Source of the DNA: Lachnospiraceae bacterium
Lineage (GTDB): Bacteria; Bacillota; Clostridia; Lachnospirales; Lachnospiraceae
Direction: 5' to 3'
Assembly (NCBI GenBank): GCA_017558145.1
Contig: JAFYWF010000079.1
Coordinates: forward strand, 1 to 56,816
DNA length: 56,816 bases
The translations under genes and the position numbers were made by a program. Positions 3,934-42,755 of this stretch are shown in pieces (positions within the stretch are counted from its first letter, which is position 1; the number at the start of each line of letters is the position of its first letter). The notes below the pieces were generated by a model. The model saw only the letters and a list, made by a program, of their open reading frames with translations. It did no database searches and was not told the origin of the DNA.

Positions 3934-6264
3934 ATGGATATTATAGCAAAATTATCAGAAGAATTAGCGGTGCAGAAATGGCAGGTGGAAGCCGCAGTTG
4001 GATTGATTGATGAAGGCAATACAATCCCTTTTATTTCCCGTTACCGTAAGGAAGTAACTGGTTCCTTAAATGATGAACAGCTTCGTAACCTTCATGAAAG
4101 ACTGACTTACCTTCGTAATTTGGAAGATAAAAAAACACAAGTTTTATCCAGCATTGAAGAACAGGGAAAACTGACAGAAGAATTAAAAGAAAAGATTTTA
4201 AGTGCTGAAACTATGGTTACGGTAGAAGATTTGTACCGTCCTTACAGACCTAAAAGAAAAACAAGAGCCAGTGTGGCTAAAGAAAAAGGTTTGGAACCAT
4301 TGGCAGAAACTATCTTAGCACAGGAAATTGCAGGAGATATTTTAGAAGAAGCTGCAAAATATATTTCAGAAGAAAAAGAAGTAAAAACAGCAGAGGAAGC
4401 GCTCCAGGGAGCAAAAGATATTATTGCGGAAAGTATTTCTGATGAGGCAGATTATCGTACTTATATTCGTGAGATTACTACCCAGGAAGGTAAGCTTATC
4501 AGTACTGCAAAAGACGAAAAAGCAGAATCTGTTTATGAAATGTATTATTCTTATGAAGAACCTGTTAAATCTGTAGCAGGTCATCGTATTTTGGCTTTAA
4601 ACCGTGGGGAAGCAGAAAAATTCTTAACTGTAAAAGTGGAGGCTCCACAGGAGAGGATTTTAACCTATTTAGAAAAGAAAACGATTACGAAAGAAAACCC
4701 GGTGACAACACCGATTTTACAGGAAGTAGCGTTGGATAGTTATCAAAGATTGATTGCACCGGCTATTGAAAGAGAAATTAGAAATGAATTGACAGAAAAG
4801 GCGGAAGATGGTGCTATTTCTGTATTTGGTAAAAATTTGGAACAGCTATTATTACAGCCACCAATTGCCGGAAAAGTAGTTTTAGGATGGGACCCTGCCT
4901 TCAGAACAGGTTGTAAATTAGCAGTAGTAGATGAGACAGGAAAAGTATTAGACACAAAAGTAATCTATCCTACAGCACCTCAAAATAAGATAGAAGAAGC
5001 GAAAGCAGAATTAAAGAAAATTATTAAAAAATATAATGTATCTTTAATCTCCGTTGGAAATGGAACTGCGTCCAGAGAATCGGAACAGGTCATTGTAGAA
5101 CTTTTAAAAGAGTTAGATACACCGGTACAGTATGTGATAGTGAATGAAGCAGGTGCCAGTGTGTATTCTGCTAGTAAATTAGCAACCGAAGAATTTCCAA
5201 ACTTTGATGTGGGACAACGTAGTGCAGCATCCATCGCAAGACGTCTTCAGGATCCTCTCGCAGAATTGGTTAAAATTGATCCTAAATCTATCGGTGTAGG
5301 TCAGTATCAGCATGATATGAATCAGAAAAAACTTAGTGAAGCCCTTACCGGTGTGGTAGAAGATAGTGTAAATAAAGTTGGTGTTGACTTAAATACAGCC
5401 AGTGCTCCACTGATGGAATATATTTCAGGAATCAATAAAACCATTGCAAAAAATATTGTGGAATATCGAGAAACAAATGGTAGATTTACAGAACGTAAGC
5501 AGTTATTAAAGGTGCCTAAATTAGGACCGAAAGCTTACCAGCAGTGTGCAGGTTTTATGCGTATTTTGGATGGAAAAAATCCACTAGACGCAACAAGTGT
5601 ACATCCGGAATCTTATGACGCAACTATGCAGCTTTTAGAAAAATTGGGCTTAACAATGGATGATGTCAAAGAAATCCAAAAACAGGTTGCAAGTGAAAAG
5701 ACTCAGGTAAAGAAAGAAAAACCAAAGAAACAGCCGAAAAAGCAGATTGTGGTACGTAATACAGGTACTGCCATGGGCAAAGCTTTAGCAGAAGCCTTCC
5801 AGGGTGTGACTGTGGAAGCAGAAACAAAAGACAGTGGTAAAGCTGTTGCGATAACAGTTTCCGGCTTGGAAAAGAGAGTCAAAGACAAAAAGAAAATGGC
5901 TGAGGAATTAGGTATCGGTGAATTAACCTTAACTGATATCTTAAAAGAATTAGAAAAGCCGGCCCGTGACCCTCGTGAAGATATGCCAAAACCGATTTTA
6001 AGAAGTGATATTTTGGAAATGAAAGATTTAAAACCGGGAATGGTGTTAAAGGGAACAGTTCGTAATGTAATCGATTTCGGTGCTTTTGTAGATATCGGGG
6101 TTCATCAGGATGGTTTGGTACATATTTCTCAAATTACAGAAAAATTTATTAAACATCCATTGGAAGCTGTTAGTGTAGGCGATGTAGTAGATGTACAGGT
6201 TATGAGTGTAGATGTGGCAAAGAAACGAATTGCTCTTACCATGAAAATTGAATCTAAAAAATAA
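3934..6264 (+). CDS. tex: Tex family RNA-binding transcription accessory protein
   Basis: A 776-residue Tex protein. Domains in order: N-terminal helical Tex_N (about 1-190), a YqgF-like RNase H fold (about 320-450, beginning GKVVLGWDPAFRTGCK), tandem helix-hairpin-helix segments (about 480-560, with KLGPKAYQQCAGFMRI), a lysine-rich linker near 590-610, and a C-terminal S1 RNA-binding domain (about 690-765, KGTVRNVIDFGAFVDIGV). Tex binds RNA and associates with transcription or ribosomes in many bacteria; its exact role is unsettled. A good ribosome site (AAGGAGAA) precedes the ATG by about 8 bp. It appears to be a single-gene transcription unit. Confidence 0.95.
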   Translation: MDIIAKLSEELAVQKWQVEAAVGLIDEGNTIPFISRYRKEVTGSLNDEQLRNLHERLTYLRNLEDKKTQVLSSIEEQGKLTEELKEKILSAETMVTVEDLYRPYRPKRKTRASVAKEKGLEPLAETILAQEIAGDILEEAAKYISEEKEVKTAEEALQGAKDIIAESISDEADYRTYIREITTQEGKLISTAKDEKAESVYEMYYSYEEPVKSVAGHRILALNRGEAEKFLTVKVEAPQERILTYLEKKTITKENPVTTPILQEVALDSYQRLIAPAIEREIRNELTEKAEDGAISVFGKNLEQLLLQPPIAGKVVLGWDPAFRTGCKLAVVDETGKVLDTKVIYPTAPQNKIEEAKAELKKIIKKYNVSLISVGNGTASRESEQVIVELLKELDTPVQYVIVNEAGASVYSASKLATEEFPNFDVGQRSAASIARRLQDPLAELVKIDPKSIGVGQYQHDMNQKKLSEALTGVVEDSVNKVGVDLNTASAPLMEYISGINKTIAKNIVEYRETNGRFTERKQLLKVPKLGPKAYQQCAGFMRILDGKNPLDATSVHPESYDATMQLLEKLGLTMDDVKEIQKQVASEKTQVKKEKPKKQPKKQIVVRNTGTAMGKALAEAFQGVTVEAETKDSGKAVAITVSGLEKRVKDKKKMAEELGIGELTLTDILKELEKPARDPREDMPKPILRSDILEMKDLKPGMVLKGTVRNVIDFGAFVDIGVHQDGLVHISQITEKFIKHPLEAVSVGDVVDVQVMSVDVAKKRIALTMKIESKK

Positions 6265-19170: not shown

Positions 19171-19191
19171 GCAAAAGTAAAATAAATAAAA

Positions 19192-19318
19192 TTCTTCGGG
19201 GTAGGGTGTGATTCCCAACCGGCGGTATAGTCCGCGACCCGCTTAGGCGGCTGATTTGGTGACTGGTGGAAAAGCCGGAATTCCAAAACCGACAGTAAAG
19301 TCTGGATGAGAGAAGAGA
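19192..19318 (+). promoter_or_regulatory. FMN riboswitch (RFN element)
   Basis: The conserved blocks are in order: TCTTCGGGGTAGGGTG, ATTCCCAACCGGCGGTATAG, CTGATTTGGTG, GCCGGAATTCC, CCGACAGTAAAGTCTGGATG and AGAAGA. Together they make the six-way FMN aptamer. It controls the riboflavin transporter downstream through the terminator at 19427-19460, so FMN should switch the gene off. Confidence 0.95.
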
Positions 19319-19403
19319 TGGTTTATGAGAAGCATATGTAAAAGGCAGAGATAAAAGGCAGAGAAAATGAAAAGAGCCTTGATATGAAAATGCTTGAATA
19401 AGC

Positions 19404-20273: not shown

Positions 20274-20738
20274 GAGAGATGATAAAAAGATATCTATTTG
20301 TTTAGCAATGTCATGTAGATAAGATGAAAAGTTTGAAATTAAGGAGTAAATCTTAGGATTTGCTCCTTAAAAACATTTTGGGAATAATTTTTTCATTAAG
20401 TTAAGCAAATATAACATTAAAAAATTGTAGAAAAATAGTAGCTTTGTTTTAATTATAGGGTATAATATATATAAGATGGTGTGTTAAGTTTAGGCGTGGC
20501 AAGAACAGAAACAGAGAAAACACAACAGAGAGAAAGAACACTTTAGAGCGAATCAGAGAGAGTATTTTATTACAGTAAACAGAGAGAACAGCATTTTTTA
20601 GTAGAGATATTTTAAATTAGAGAGAAAAGAAAGAATAGGAAAACTACGCACACAAGACTAACATTCCTTGTATTTTTGCAGGGTATTTTGTCTTGTTTTT
20701 TTATACACATCATTGATTACTGTAATAAAGAGGTCTTA
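20274..20738 (+). other. Intergenic region with hairpins and purine-rich leader
   Basis: After ribU there is a 12-bp hairpin at 20341-20368 (AAGGAG...CTCCTT) without a T run. A promoter-like TATAAT occurs near 20460. From about 20490 to 20640 the plus strand is strikingly purine-rich with many GAGAGA units. A terminator-like hairpin follows (separate entry). No coding frame is supported before the transposase fragment at 20739. Confidence 0.55.
20652..20702 (+). terminator. Terminator-like hairpin upstream of transposase fragment
   Basis: ACAAGAC pairs with GTCTTGT, with an inner CCTTG/CAGGG helix, followed by a T run. Such structures at the front of insertion sequences block transcription entering from outside. 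Confidence 0.6.
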
Positions 20739-21323
20739 ATGATGAAAATAGTTAATACAACTCCTGATGTGTTAAAGCATCAGATTCAAGATGCAATCGC
20801 CAAGGCGGTTAAAATTTACAGACAAGATTATCCAAACGAAAAATCTTATTTTTCACGCAATCGAGTTCTGACAATAGAAAAAATGGTTAATCTTCTGCTC
20901 TCCATGCAGGGTGGCAGTCTGAACGAAGAATTATATGATGCAGGAATTGATGTGACAGCATCCGCATTCGTACAGCGAAGAAACAAATTATCTTGGACTA
21001 TATTTGAAGATGTGTTCGAAAATAAAAAAGACGCTTTTGTAAAGCAGGAAATATATTCCGCAATGATTATGATGAATTTTTGCAACCGCATTGTAAATGA
21101 AATTGTAATTCAAAAGAAGCAGGAAAATATTCACGAATATAAGGTAAACATGAAAATGGCTATGTATCTATGCAGACAATTCTTCCGTACCAAAAATGCG
21201 GATGCTAAAAAGTTGATAAAAGATATTTCCAAATATGTAGAACCGGTGCGTCCGGACAGACGTGATACAAGAAATATCAAAGCAAAATCTTTTGTAGGAT
21301 TTGTATATAGAGTGTCCGCATAA
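20739..21323 (+). mobile_element. Internally deleted IS4-type transposase remnant
   Basis: The frame encodes about 194 residues from tandem ATGs at 20739/20742 behind AAAGAGGT. Residues 1-105 match the start of IS4-type transposases (RNRVLTIEKMVNLLLSMQGG, then ELYDAGIDVTASAFVQRRNKL). The rest matches their extreme C-terminus (MIMMNFCNRIVNE, then RQFFRTKNADAKKLIKDISKYVEPVRPDR). The catalytic DDE core of roughly 200-250 residues between them is gone, but the frame is kept. It cannot be active on its own. Terminal inverted repeats could not be identified with confidence. A strong hairpin terminator follows. Confidence 0.8.
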
Positions 21324-21340
21324 TAGAAAAAATTGCACAA

Positions 21341-21391
21341 GAAAAATACGGAGTGGAATTTCAGAAATTCTGCTCTGTATTTTTCTTTTTC
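21341..21391 (+). terminator. Long hairpin terminator after transposase fragment
   Basis: GAAAAATAC-GAG-GAATTTC pairs with GAAATTC-CTC-GTATTTTTC with small internal loops, then CTTTTT. Confidence 0.8.
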
Positions 21392-22051
21392 TGAAAAAGC
21401 ACCTTTTTAAGTCGAAAAACTAAGTTTTTCAAAAAATAATATCCTGCTCTAACTAAACAGAGGAAAAAAACAGGTAATCAGATAACGTAGAAGATAACTT
21501 CACAACTAGTTATAGGAATGTAGCAAAAATAGAAACAATTTCCGATTATGAACAATACCTAACGATAGAAAGAAAATATTAACTAGTCATGGAAATGAAC
21601 CGAAAAATACTTTTTGTATTTTTATATACTCCCACTCTTTAGCAGATTGCACAAAGGAAAATCCGTATTAAGTTTAGAAATAGGTTTTTGAAGTGGATTT
21701 TACAGATTTTGGTATATTCTGTAAAAAACATTACTTTTCCATACTTGATACGGATTAGTGAGAAAATGAAAAAATGTTACGTTTATTACAAATTTCAAAA
21801 ATCAAGTCAATTTTTATGACGTTATGATGACTAGTTGAGACTTTAAGTTTTGAGGTTTTTCAAAATTGAGAATAAAGTTTTCATACATTATACTGACAAG
21901 TTAGTAAAATACGATATTAAATGCTAAAGAATTAAATCTTATTTATTCTTAAATCTATTTCCAAAAAAAATATAAGGATGTTAAAATATATGTGAAATTC
22001 AATATAAGAAATTATAAAACAGTTAGATAAAATGAAGTTGTGGAGGTGTAA
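21392..22051. other. AT-rich non-coding stretch before rhomboid gene
   Basis: About 660 bp with no supported reading frame. A small palindrome GAAAAACTAAGTTTTTC lies near 21415-21431. Three CTAGT motifs occur, but no clear repeat, tRNA or promoter stands out. It could contain the far end of the insertion element or decayed DNA. Confidence 0.5.
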
Positions 22052-22711
22052 ATGGAACAATCAAGAAAAGGCGATCTTATTGCTAAGTATGGGCTGGTTA
22101 ACATAATCATTTCTGCAACAAACGTTATCTTTTTAATTATTAATTCAATAATTGTAAATGACACGACATTAAATCAACTTGCTTCTAACAAATATGTGGC
22201 ATATGCTTTGAATTTTTTAGCTGGATGTGAAGGTAAACTTGGAATATTAGGTTCATTGTCTAAAATCAAAGTTTTTAGTGACGGAGAATGGTGGAGGCTT
22301 TTTTTACATATGTATTTACACGCAGGTATTTTACATATGACTTTCAATGTTTTTGCATTGTTGTTTGTAGGGAAAGTCGTTGAGAAAAAAATAGGCAGTT
22401 TTTTATACATTTTATTGTACCATCTGATTGCAGTTATTAATGCAATTATTATATGCGTGATTTTTCCTAATAGTGTATCTGTTGGTGCATCGGCAGGTAT
22501 ATTTGGAATGATTGGTATAGTATGTGTTATGAAATGGAAGAAGGAAGTTGTATATATTAAAAGTCTGAGTAAGGGAGAGGTTATATATATTATAGCTTTT
22601 TCAATATTATCTCTTCTCCTTGGTTTAGAAAGCTTTGTTACTCATTTTGTTGCTTTTATGTTTGGAATTGTTGTAGGATTACTATTACAAAAGAATTCTA
22701 AATTTGAATAA
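22052..22711 (+). CDS. Rhomboid-family intramembrane serine protease
   Basis: A 219-residue, six-helix protein. WWRLFLHMYLHAGILHMTFN (about 80-99) is the rhomboid L1/TM2 region, the catalytic Ser147 lies in GASAGIFG, and the His partner is His198 in VTHFVAFMFG. The usual glycine after the His (HxGG) is replaced here by Val-Ala, a departure from the common pattern. Rhomboids cleave substrate membrane helices. GGAGGTG precedes the ATG by 5 bp. It lies 44 bp before the TraX-like gene and the two are probably co-transcribed. Confidence 0.88.
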   Translation: MEQSRKGDLIAKYGLVNIIISATNVIFLIINSIIVNDTTLNQLASNKYVAYALNFLAGCEGKLGILGSLSKIKVFSDGEWWRLFLHMYLHAGILHMTFNVFALLFVGKVVEKKIGSFLYILLYHLIAVINAIIICVIFPNSVSVGASAGIFGMIGIVCVMKWKKEVVYIKSLSKGEVIYIIAFSILSLLLGLESFVTHFVAFMFGIVVGLLLQKNSKFE

Positions 22712-22755
22712 GAATTTTTAGGAATACTGAGTTTGAAATTTACGGAGGATTAGGT

Positions 22756-23502
22756 ATGAATACAAAAGGTTTAAATGGTAATCAATTAAAAGTTATTGCT
22801 ATGTTGGCTATGACTATCGACCATTTGGCAGCCGTAATATTTCCTAATTATCCTACTGATTGGTGGATTGTAGGATTACATATTATAGGAAGATTAGCTG
22901 CACCTGTTTTTATGTTTTTTATTGCAGAAGGATATTTTTATACTAGGGATTGGAAGAAGTATGCTTTAAGGCTTTTGATGTTTGCTGTTGTAAGTCATTT
23001 TGCCTATAATTTTGCTTTTGGAATCCCATTTATACCTTTTAAAACTTCTGCATTTAATCAGACCAGTATCATTTGGTCATTGTTTTGGGGGTTGATTGCT
23101 TTAGTTATTAATGATTGTGCTAAATTGAAAAAATGGCAGAAAACAGTCCTTGTAATAGGTATATTAGCTATTACTTTTTGTTCTGATTGGAGTTGTATTG
23201 CAGTATTGGCAATCATGGAAATCAGTACTAATCGAGGGAATTTCAAAAAGCAGATGAAAGGAATGCTGATTTGGTGTACCATGTATGCAGTCATATTCTT
23301 TATTTTTATTAATCCTGTTTATGGTATAGTTCAGTTATTTGTTGCACTTGCCATTCCTTTGTTGAAAGCTTACAATGGACAAAAAGGTTCTTGGAAAGGT
23401 ATGAAATATTTATTCTATATATATTATCCATTGCATTTAGTTATCTGTGGAATTATTCGTATTGCTTTATATGGAAACGTAAGTGTAATGATAGGTGGAT
23501 AA
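22756..23502 (+). CDS. TraX-family membrane protein
   Basis: A 248-residue polytopic protein beginning GLNGNQLKVIAMLAMTIDH, then HIIGRLAAPVFMFFIAEGY near residues 40-58 and a late YIYYPLHLVI, which are hallmarks of the TraX family (named from the F-plasmid pilin acetylase). About eight helices are predicted. In Firmicutes these genes are usually chromosomal and unrelated to conjugation; no other transfer genes are present here. GGAGG lies about 9 bp upstream of the ATG. The substrate is unknown. Confidence 0.88.
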   Translation: MNTKGLNGNQLKVIAMLAMTIDHLAAVIFPNYPTDWWIVGLHIIGRLAAPVFMFFIAEGYFYTRDWKKYALRLLMFAVVSHFAYNFAFGIPFIPFKTSAFNQTSIIWSLFWGLIALVINDCAKLKKWQKTVLVIGILAITFCSDWSCIAVLAIMEISTNRGNFKKQMKGMLIWCTMYAVIFFIFINPVYGIVQLFVALAIPLLKAYNGQKGSWKGMKYLFYIYYPLHLVICGIIRIALYGNVSVMIGG

Positions 23503-23601
23503 AGAGTAAAACAAAATATGTATAATTCTAATTTAGAAGATGATAAGATTATATTTTCTCCAAAATGAATATATTAATATGAAACACGTTTAAAAATTAT
23601 T

Positions 23602-23630
23602 TTGACGTCAAATATATTCTAGTGTATAAT
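23602..23630 (+). promoter_or_regulatory. Near-perfect sigma-A promoter for the tandem RNA repeat
   Basis: TTGACG (23602-23607) and TATAAT (23625-23630) are 17 bp apart. Transcription would begin near 23637, some 18 nt before the first RNA repeat. Confidence 0.85.
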
Positions 23631-23636
23631 TAAACT

Positions 23637-23780
23637 ACAAAAAGAGACATTAATAAGGTCGGAACAGAGACCTTAAACCTGTTCCAGTGGTCGGGATGGA
23701 GACCGAAAACCCATTCCCATGGCAGAATAAACTGTGAAAAATTAGTAGAAGGATGGCTGTGAAGTCGTCCTTCTATTTTA
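23637..23780 (+). ncRNA. Candidate RNA antitoxin: two tandem 32-nt pseudoknot units plus terminator
   Basis: Two 32-nt units start at 23655 and 23687 (22 of 32 positions identical) with a partial third from 23719. In unit 1, AAGGTC can pair with GACCTT and GGAACAG with CTGTTCC; the helices interleave, so a pseudoknot is possible. Unit 2 keeps GGTC/GACC, and GGGATGG pairs with CCATTCC with compensating changes (C-G to U-A, A-U to G-C, A-U to G-U). A terminator hairpin follows, and then the nuclease gene. This is the arrangement of type III toxin-antitoxin RNAs. Because no spacer separates the two 5' strands, the full pairing may be strained. Function is inferred. Confidence 0.6.
23746..23780 (+). 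terminator. Terminator between the RNA repeats and the nuclease gene
   Basis: TAGAAGGATG pairs with CGTCCTTCTA around a 10-nt loop, then TTTTA. Its position between a repeat RNA and a nuclease gene would limit nuclease expression to read-through. Confidence 0.75.
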
Positions 23781-23794
23781 CTATTGGAGGAATA

Positions 23795-24450
23795 ATGACA
23801 GAACAAAAGAGTTTCAAAAAACGTGTGAAAGAAACAGTCATTCAGAACGCTTATTCATATAAAAAATATTTTGTAGATTATGAATATTTACTTTTCTCGA
23901 CTGCATTCGTGAATAATAAGTATTATATTGTTTCTGCATATAATGACAATTATTTGCATCTTACAGGATTGCATACAAGTTTGAATGCTACTGATTTTTT
24001 TGAAAAGTGCTATACAGGAACTTTGGAAGAAAGTGATTTCGACTTTTGTAAAAGTGGACAAAACGAAAGTGAAGTAAAAGGTTCTGTTAGAAGAAAAATC
24101 AATTCATTACCAACTATTATGGATATATTTAATGTGGGGACATCTGTTGAAGAAGATTTTGAGAAGAATAGAATCAGATGTGCGTTAGCGGCTGGAAATG
24201 TAAGTGCGACATTAGGATTCGTAGTAGCAGGAAAAGCGAAGCCGATGACTTATTAAAAGGGAATGAACTAAATTCTGCGAAAGCAAAGAAATTAGACTTG
24301 GTTTTCCGTAGAAAATCTGGTGAAAACAGATTTACAGAAATGTTGATTGGGGATGAGCACAGATTATTAGAATATAAAGGTACTTTAGCTGATTTGCTTT
24401 CGGAAGAATTATTATCACTTATCAATACAGATGTAAAAACAGGAGAATAG
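23795..24450 (+). pseudogene. PBECR4-like nuclease domain protein, frameshifted
   Basis: ATG at 23795 follows GGAGG. The first 152 residues in frame match PBECR4-type proteins (BECR-fold nuclease superfamily): KYFVDYEYLLFSTAF near 26-40, HLTGLHTSLNATDFFEKC near 56-73, then KGSVRRKINSLP near 101-112. The frame hits TAA at 24254, but similarity continues in the -1 frame from 24250 (LLKGNELNSAKAKKLDLVF to the end at 24450). One base (a T near 24250) appears lost. An intact product would be about 218 residues. No convincing slippery heptamer is present, so mutation or sequencing error is more likely than programmed shifting. Family recognised from memory. Confidence 0.72.
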
Positions 24451-24453
24451 AAA

Positions 24454-24495
24454 AAATCCCTTCCATTTTTTATGCGAGGAAGGGATTTCTTTTTA
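24454..24495 (+). terminator. Terminator after PBECR4-like gene
   Basis: AAATCCCTTCC pairs with GGAAGGGATTT and is followed by CTTTTTA. Confidence 0.85.
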
Positions 24496-24631
24496 TAAAA
24501 CACTAACTAAATGACATTGATTTGTTTAGATATCTTTTTTTAACAAAACTATTGAATTCTATTTTAAATTCACTTAGGCTTATGGAAGGACGTTTGAAAA
24601 TGAAAGAAAGAGTAAGGATGGATTGTTATTT

Positions 24632-42568: not shown

Positions 42569-42583
42569 GGCGTAATAAATAAG

Positions 42584-42672
42584 TTGCTAGGGGAGCGTTA
42601 GCTGAGAATCATCTTCGGATGGGGACCCTCATTACTTGATTCCGGATAATACCGGCGTAAGGAAGCCAAATA
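42584..42672 (+). promoter_or_regulatory. TPP riboswitch (THI element)
   Basis: Conserved blocks appear in order: CTAGGGGAGCG, GCTGAGAA, GGGACCCTCATTACTTGATT, CGGATAATACCGGCGTAAGGAAG. They form the thiamine-pyrophosphate aptamer. The downstream gene is a thiamine transporter. The platform hairpin at 42756-42788 is separate. Confidence 0.95.
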
Positions 42673-42755
42673 GTAGAAATGCGTATTGTAGGCGCCAATA
42701 TAGAGTCATGGATACAAGAACTCTGTAAAAACAGTATTTCTAAGCTACTAAGCTT

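Follow-up and report, generated by a model that had tools for sequence, protein, structure and literature searches.

A PBECR4-family gene behind tandem predicted pseudoknots: a probable type III-like toxin-antitoxin module and its relatives in the Lachnospiraceae

Introduction

When a gene for a presumed nuclease that does not resemble ToxN stands behind a promoter, tandem RNA units and a terminator, is the arrangement a toxin-antitoxin module, a regulatory leader or a relic? In type III systems (ToxIN/AbiQ, CptIN and TenpIN) a single promoter, tandem RNA repeats and an intrinsic terminator precede the toxin gene, as set out in the accessible part of PMC5086642. A locus of this appearance was found in the draft genome (120 contigs, 88% complete) of a Lachnospiraceae bacterium (GenBank assembly GCA_017558145.1), within contig JAFYWF010000079.1. 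The window, i.e., the whole stretch of DNA that was analysed, is 56,816 nt long, and coordinates given without a locus name refer to it.

Results

Anatomy and setting of the locus

The locus occupies 23602-24450 on the + strand, and its features and surroundings are as follows.

23602-23630, + strand: sigma-70-type promoter, TTGACG-17-TATAAT, with 11 of 12 consensus matches (a sequence match, not transcription)
23655-23685, + strand: RNA unit 1, predicted H-type pseudoknot; stem 1 (GGTC/GACC) pairs 23657-23660 with 23669-23672, stem 2 pairs 23661-23667 with 23679-23685
23689-23717, + strand: RNA unit 2, predicted H-type pseudoknot; stem 1 pairs 23689-23692 with 23701-23704, stem 2 pairs 23693-23699 with 23711-23717
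23722-23735, + strand: small conserved hairpin 3' of both units, GCAG..CTGT, from alignment and pairing
23744-23781, + strand: predicted intrinsic terminator between RNA and gene, a 15-pair stem (23744-23777) followed by a T-rich tail
23786-23790, + strand: Shine-Dalgarno sequence GGAGG of the putative toxin gene
23795-24256, + strand: PBECR4 (PF18813) gene, 5' in-frame part, ATG at 23795 and stop at 24254-24256
24250-24450, + strand: remainder of the PBECR4 coding sequence in a different frame, the frame being interrupted near 24250
24451-24491, unstranded: inverted repeat with T/A tails after the gene, found by inverted-repeat search, a probable terminator
20274-24622, unstranded: accessory stretch carrying the module, lying between the ECF-transporter gene and dapF, absent in the five congeners in which dapF was found

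The preliminary description had read here a promoter, tandem structured RNA repeats, a terminator and a nuclease-family gene with its own ribosome site, and this order was borne out element by element: the promoter-like site is followed by two units whose GTC trinucleotides (23658 and 23690) lie 32 nt apart, then by the 15-pair stem, GGAGG and a gene matching PF18813. An alignment of window-type proteins, searched against 84,980 species (one genome per species), gave 41 loci. A promoter score of at least 10 of 12 was found upstream of unit 1 in 28 of 34 window-type loci, compared with 16 of 680 random stretches, and a terminator-like hairpin was present in 30 of the 31 loci tested. In the window itself one terminator-like stem was observed against a shuffle mean of 0.3, as a sequence pattern only. 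The RNA units were not detected by a plain direct-repeat search of the window because their fold is repeated more than their letters. An FMN riboswitch (19188-19321) and a TPP riboswitch (42579-42680) also lie in the window, both above their gathering scores.

The setting was compared with that in six congeners. dapF was found in five, and in all five the ECF-transporter gene adjoins it; in the window the two are separated by 4.35 kb (20274-24622) comprising a 215-aa ORF, a rhomboid gene, a TraX gene and the RNA/PBECR4 module. The 215-aa ORF (20676-21323) has no Pfam match and by eye resembles part of a transposase.

The window-type RNA is a tandem of predicted pseudoknots

Units of the form GTC-loop-GAC were recognised by pattern upstream of nearly all window-type loci, prior to any RNA model. 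Among the 37 loci examined (the window and L061-L096), 34 carry two or three units at a spacing of 32-35 nt, two are truncated by the end of the contig and retain one unit, and L094 matched no unit pattern. By eye, L094 (Sphaerochaetaceae) has a divergent unit near 4914-4990 whose 3' strand leads directly into a T tract, an arrangement that looks like a merger of pseudoknot and terminator.

Covariation was assessed with identical units counted once, which left 56 distinct units drawn from 36 loci. Two crossing stems of four and seven pairs were found, with 95.8% of cells paired, and pairing fell to 34-54% when the partner strand was slid by 1-3 columns. The covariation score was 0.473, against 0.228 in shuffled alignments, and cells changed on both sides numbered 89 against 23.0; neither value was reached in any of 500 shuffles. 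The count of pairs with changes on both sides, one of five measures, was not unusual (6 compared with 4.7 shuffled, 88 of 500). Stem 2 has such changes in five of its seven pairs and stem 1 in one of its four; as the other three stem-1 pairs are invariant, the covariation evidence comes mainly from stem 2. On these observations the window-type unit is predicted to fold as an H-type pseudoknot.

A covariance model of the two-unit RNA, R1, had a match before the gene at 36 of the 41 protein-fetched loci. This recovery is largely by construction, since 29 of these loci were in the training set and another three copy training rows. Against Rfam the window RNA gave chance-level matches only (best E 0.8). 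The drum RNA (RF02958), which features below, had no match in the window at its gathering score, nor at E<=10 within 23600-23800.

The protein belongs to the PBECR4 family and is under purifying selection

The product of 23795-24253 matched PF18813 with 60.1 bits (cut-off 27), covering profile positions 3-101 of 188, and the same family was matched at E<=1 by all 32 window-type and all 34 drum-type proteins. Families of the ToxN, CptN and TenpN type gave no match at E<=1 in Pfam, which includes ToxN_toxin (PF13958), for 66 proteins, nor was there a ToxN-type match at E<=1 in NCBIfam for seven proteins. NCBIfam includes type III toxin-antitoxin models. The earlier proposal that the protein is not ToxN/AbiQ, CptN or TenpN but PBECR4-like is therefore upheld at the level of sequence.

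Foldseek and VIA-align gave no significant fold match, and ToxN was absent from their lists, which is not evidence of absence; in a second fold search unrelated proteins ranked above BECR-type nucleases. The nuclease assignment accordingly rests on the Pfam family. A search of PDB by sequence found no relative: the drum type had no match, and the best one for the window type was a methyl-CpG-binding protein at E 0.67. PADLOC returned nothing for seven proteins, and PHROGs offered families of unknown function and a chance-level transcriptional repressor, nothing more informative. Comparison of the window-type and drum-type protein profiles gave E 0.00052 at a probability of only 31%, so that the shared Pfam match is the main evidence of their kinship. 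Most of the PBECR4 loci examined encode a stand-alone protein of ~200 aa behind an RNA. Intact window-type proteins from gut commensals include those of L102 (218 aa) and of L077, from Hominisplanchenecus faecis (213 aa), and an HLTG motif contains an invariant His. In two window-type loci the open frame runs on, into an HD domain in L063 (5001-6131, 377 aa) and into a C-terminal region in L064 (5001-6584, 528 aa).

The window gene differs from that of an intact relative, L102, by a single 1-nt length difference near 24250, and dN/dS between the two before the break is 0.08. A ratio was obtained for 11 of 13 pairs overall (range 0.08-0.18), one of the remaining two being identical and the other running into fused frames; the intact pairs that gave a ratio span 0.09-0.18. 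The PBECR4 protein is thus under purifying selection. As the part before the break is as constrained as the intact relatives, the break is either recent or an assembly error. With its coding frame interrupted, this copy probably makes RNA only, unless the interruption is an assembly error.

Three classes of RNA precede PBECR4 genes in the host family

PF18813 was found at E<=0.001 in 44 of 250 genomes of the window's taxonomic family, giving 58 PBECR4 loci after pieces of one gene were merged. An upstream match to one of three RNA models was present at 39 of the 58: drum at 19 (18 in the main search and one exactly at the gathering score), a second model, R2, at 14, and R1 at six. R1 had ten matches in the 250 genomes, the strongest six of which all precede PBECR4. 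The 19 loci that match none of the three models include several fragments, and others belong to clades with further RNA-like leaders. A terminator-like hairpin was found within ~190 nt upstream of 46 of the 58 loci, compared with 23 of 169 control ORFs drawn from the flanks of window-type loci. Nine of the 12 loci missed by the terminator finder belong to class B, the class of the R2 RNA, and several of the nine have by eye a long imperfect stem and a T tail; all were scored as misses. Whether most PBECR4 genes lack an upstream RNA had been posed as a check on the original idea, and it came out in favour of that idea, the majority having one by model. Phylum-wide, only four of 398 genomes had PBECR4, and two of the four belong to the window's own family; the statistics above therefore apply to that family.

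The source genome contains a second PBECR4 locus, L002 (contig C41, 4393-7899), one of the 19 loci that match no model, which shows by eye a promoter, a different motif in two copies (TTCTCYGYTGCGGAGA..TAAATATGAGCARAATAG), a terminator and GGAGG. L119 is related to L002 in both RNA motif and protein.

The R2 RNA of class B consists of two units of ~49 nt. In all 12 aligned RNAs the pairing is reciprocal, in that the 5' strand of each unit can pair with the loop of the other. This cross-pairing accounts for 100% of cells, changes on both sides are seen in seven pairs, and the covariation score is 0.291, compared with 0.135 in shuffled alignments (0 of 500), while the count of pair types is not raised (8 compared with 9.0 shuffled). 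The helices are only four pairs long, so the cross-pairing is a prediction with good but limited support. The alignment holds 12 of the 14 RNAs found by pattern, L022 (a single unit) and L023 (divergent) having been left out; the pattern found nothing in L011, L025, L113 and L128.

A pseudoknot within each R2 unit was considered and set aside, as it paired 89.6% of cells compared with 100%, had a covariation of 0.139 compared with 0.291 for the cross-pairing, and did no better than shuffles on four of five measures.

At L141 (G096:C2:70700-72700) the place of PBECR4 behind an R2-type RNA and terminator is taken by an ORF that has a ribosome site and by eye resembles an acetyltransferase. This ORF could be a neighbour that remained after loss of the toxin, or another effector.

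The drum RNA was also found directly before PBECR4 beyond these genomes. It precedes the gene in L058, which comes from another bacterial family (52.3 bits); of 21 plasmid records with a match, three were inspected and all three have it (46.4-51.8 bits, cut-off 43); and it is present on one phage contig (87.4 bits). Drum spans ~112 positions and was matched once per locus, with no tandem array, so that the drum clade lacks one textbook type III feature. On the phage contig (L170, 3306-5761) an FRG-domain gene and a holin gene flank the drum RNA and an intact PBECR4 gene.

Searches of plasmids, phage records and viral contigs gave no window-type protein; phage records gave no drum-type protein either, and plasmids had no match to a class B protein. 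An AbiH-annotated gene stands beside one PBECR4 locus and, as noted, an FRG-domain gene on the phage contig. These neighbours are anecdotal hints of a role in defence.

RNA class is inherited with protein clade, and some RNAs stand alone

A quick tree was built from 54 PBECR4 proteins, and on it the labels drum, R1 and R2 each fell on one side of a branch (SH-aLRT 86, 98 and 85, respectively). The three RNA classes alone require two changes on this tree; with unmodelled leaders as a fourth group, three changes suffice, which is the minimum, against a shuffled mean of 29.3. Of the 54 proteins, 42 carried a label. From the 58 loci, 17 were left out because they were fragments, had early stops or were cut (five drum and four R2 loci among them), and L058, L059, eight window-type loci and three plasmids were added. 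RNA class and protein clade are therefore co-inherited.

Independence of the RNA from the nuclease gene had also been named as a point on which the proposal could fail, and here the outcome was divided. Across the 250 genomes, 22 of 61 RNA-model matches lack a PBECR4 gene directly downstream, and one more is cut by a contig end. The matches without the gene comprise six of 25 for drum (in addition to the one cut), four of ten for R1 (three of them weak) and 12 of 26 for R2. Remnants of the toxin gene were found beside four of these 23 RNAs, by tblastn in L040, L142 and L143 and by eye alone in L139; no remnant was found at the others. Downstream matches at E 0.015-0.016 (L144 and L148) were excluded from this count; control stretches upstream gave three chance-level matches at E 0.01-0.04, together with one true neighbouring PBECR4 gene. 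The RNAs beside remnants would fit loss of a harmful gene with the RNA remaining, and an RNA without a toxin gene may have an independent role of its own.

Discussion

A proposed mechanism and its alternatives

The anatomy of the locus, the covariation of its RNA, the recurrence of RNA-PBECR4 pairs, their co-inheritance, purifying selection and the presence or absence of the module among congeners all support one reading. The locus is probably a type III-like toxin-antitoxin module with PBECR4 as the toxin and the RNA as the antitoxin. Transcription from the promoter-like site would yield a short RNA of two tandem pseudoknots ending at the terminator-like hairpin, and occasional read-through would produce a small amount of PBECR4 protein, presumably an endoribonuclease. 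The RNA units would bind and silence this protein. If transcription stopped because of phage attack, or because the plasmid or island was lost, the RNA would be expected to decay first, and the freed enzyme could then cut RNA and arrest growth, an effect that would be toxic and may serve in defence. By analogy, AbiF with its RNA motif is a close precedent for an RNA-silenced toxin.

A local explanation, compatible with the toxin-antitoxin reading, is that the copy in the window is a decaying remnant on an accessory island, of which only the RNA may act, e.g., by neutralising a related toxin. The chances of this are about even. The broken frame near 24250, the absence of the island in the five congeners with a dapF match and the solitary R1-type RNAs elsewhere all point this way, whereas the dN/dS of 0.08 against L102, as low as between intact relatives, suggests a break that is recent or an artefact of assembly. 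In either case the explanation bears on this copy and not on the PBECR4 family.

The RNA could instead be a cis-acting attenuator or riboswitch, its pseudoknots sensing a ligand or protein and so setting passage through the terminator into PBECR4. A structured leader and a terminator directly before a gene are indeed the anatomy of an attenuator, and the terminator arm often has GGATG, which is able to pair with the 3' strand of unit 2. However, in 25 loci this one candidate pairing, of unit 2 with the terminator arm, showed no covariation (12.0 compared with 12.3 shuffled, 1772 of 2000 shuffles at least as high), and attenuation explains poorly both the tracking of different RNA classes with clades of one protein family and the persistence of RNAs without the gene. 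We regard it as unlikely. Least likely, with only a slim chance, is a ribonucleoprotein in which PBECR4 would use the RNA as a functional partner to cleave or sense nucleic acid, the free protein being inactive: co-inheritance of RNA class and clade would be expected of any dedicated ribonucleoprotein, and defence-type neighbours occur at two loci looked at (AbiH as annotated, and the FRG domain), but the RNA classes differ among clades, no guide-like region was noticed, the terminator layout would keep the protein low relative to the RNA, and solitary RNAs with toxin remnants are better explained by loss of a harmful protein.

If the toxin-antitoxin reading is extended to the other classes, PBECR4 is probably a superfamily of RNA-silenced toxins with at least three antitoxin folds (tandem pseudoknots, a cross-paired two-unit RNA and drum), in which drum would itself be an antitoxin. 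Should this be true, another toxin family would join the type III-like systems built on ToxN relatives, one toxin family could use different RNA inhibitors, and drum would gain a testable function. The modules lie on an accessory island, on plasmids and on at least one phage contig, and two of them have defence-type genes as neighbours. With intact relatives from gut commensals, a part in phage conflict or in plasmid maintenance can therefore be tested.

Comparison with known systems

The name PBECR4 occurs in no paper of the literature searched, and among the matches listed there no report links PBECR4 to RNA antitoxins or to drum, a scope that left outside most subscription papers, bioRxiv holdings and the 2017 description of drum. 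The type III layout and pseudoknot antitoxins are already known. The links of PBECR4 to an RNA antitoxin and to drum may be new, though priority is not certain within this scope.

According to the portion of the 2021 structural paper available, drum contains a k-turn that folds in Mg2+, and its function is left open in that portion (PMC8191799). What drum shares with the window RNA is a place directly upstream of PBECR4, in other clades; the window RNA differs in being a tandem pseudoknot for which no Rfam entry was found.

The PBECR domains were reportedly first described in polyvalent proteins. Those domains belong to the same Pfam naming series, whereas the PBECR4 proteins seen here are mostly free-standing and encoded behind an RNA. 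PBECR3 is described, in the part of PMC9403866 that is accessible, as an endoRNase in polyvalent proteins of phages and conjugative elements.

Two further RNA-silenced systems are instructive. The accessible part of PMC12373285 describes an abiF RNA motif, present in two copies upstream of AbiF and followed by a terminator, which binds and neutralises AbiF in cis and in trans; AbiF itself is placed there in the Abi_2/AbiD/F family, with links to Cas13 ancestors. The likeness lies in a conserved orphan RNA before a toxin-like gene, and the difference in that PBECR4 is another family with other RNAs. AvcID is presented as a novel type III system with an RNA antitoxin in the accessible part of PMC10511110. 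Its toxin is a deoxycytidylate deaminase, whereas PBECR4 is a BECR-type nuclease by Pfam family.

The closest comparison is with ToxIN, CptIN and TenpIN. ToxI and CptI are H-type pseudoknots according to the accessible part of PMC5086642, and ToxI/antiQ units are spaced 34-36 nt apart according to that of PMC12373285. The window locus shares with these systems its layout, its tandem units, their predicted H-type pseudoknots and a spacing (32-35 nt) that is close to theirs. It differs in its toxin, which is PBECR4 with no ToxN-type match, and in an RNA without a notable Rfam match; moreover, other PBECR4 clades carry other RNAs, one of them not tandem. The suggestion that a new RNA-antitoxin-type family might exist around PBECR4 gains support from the upstream RNAs at 39 of 58 loci and from their co-inheritance with protein clade. 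The best reading of these sequences is that the PBECR4 systems form a type III-like family without detectable sequence kinship to ToxN.
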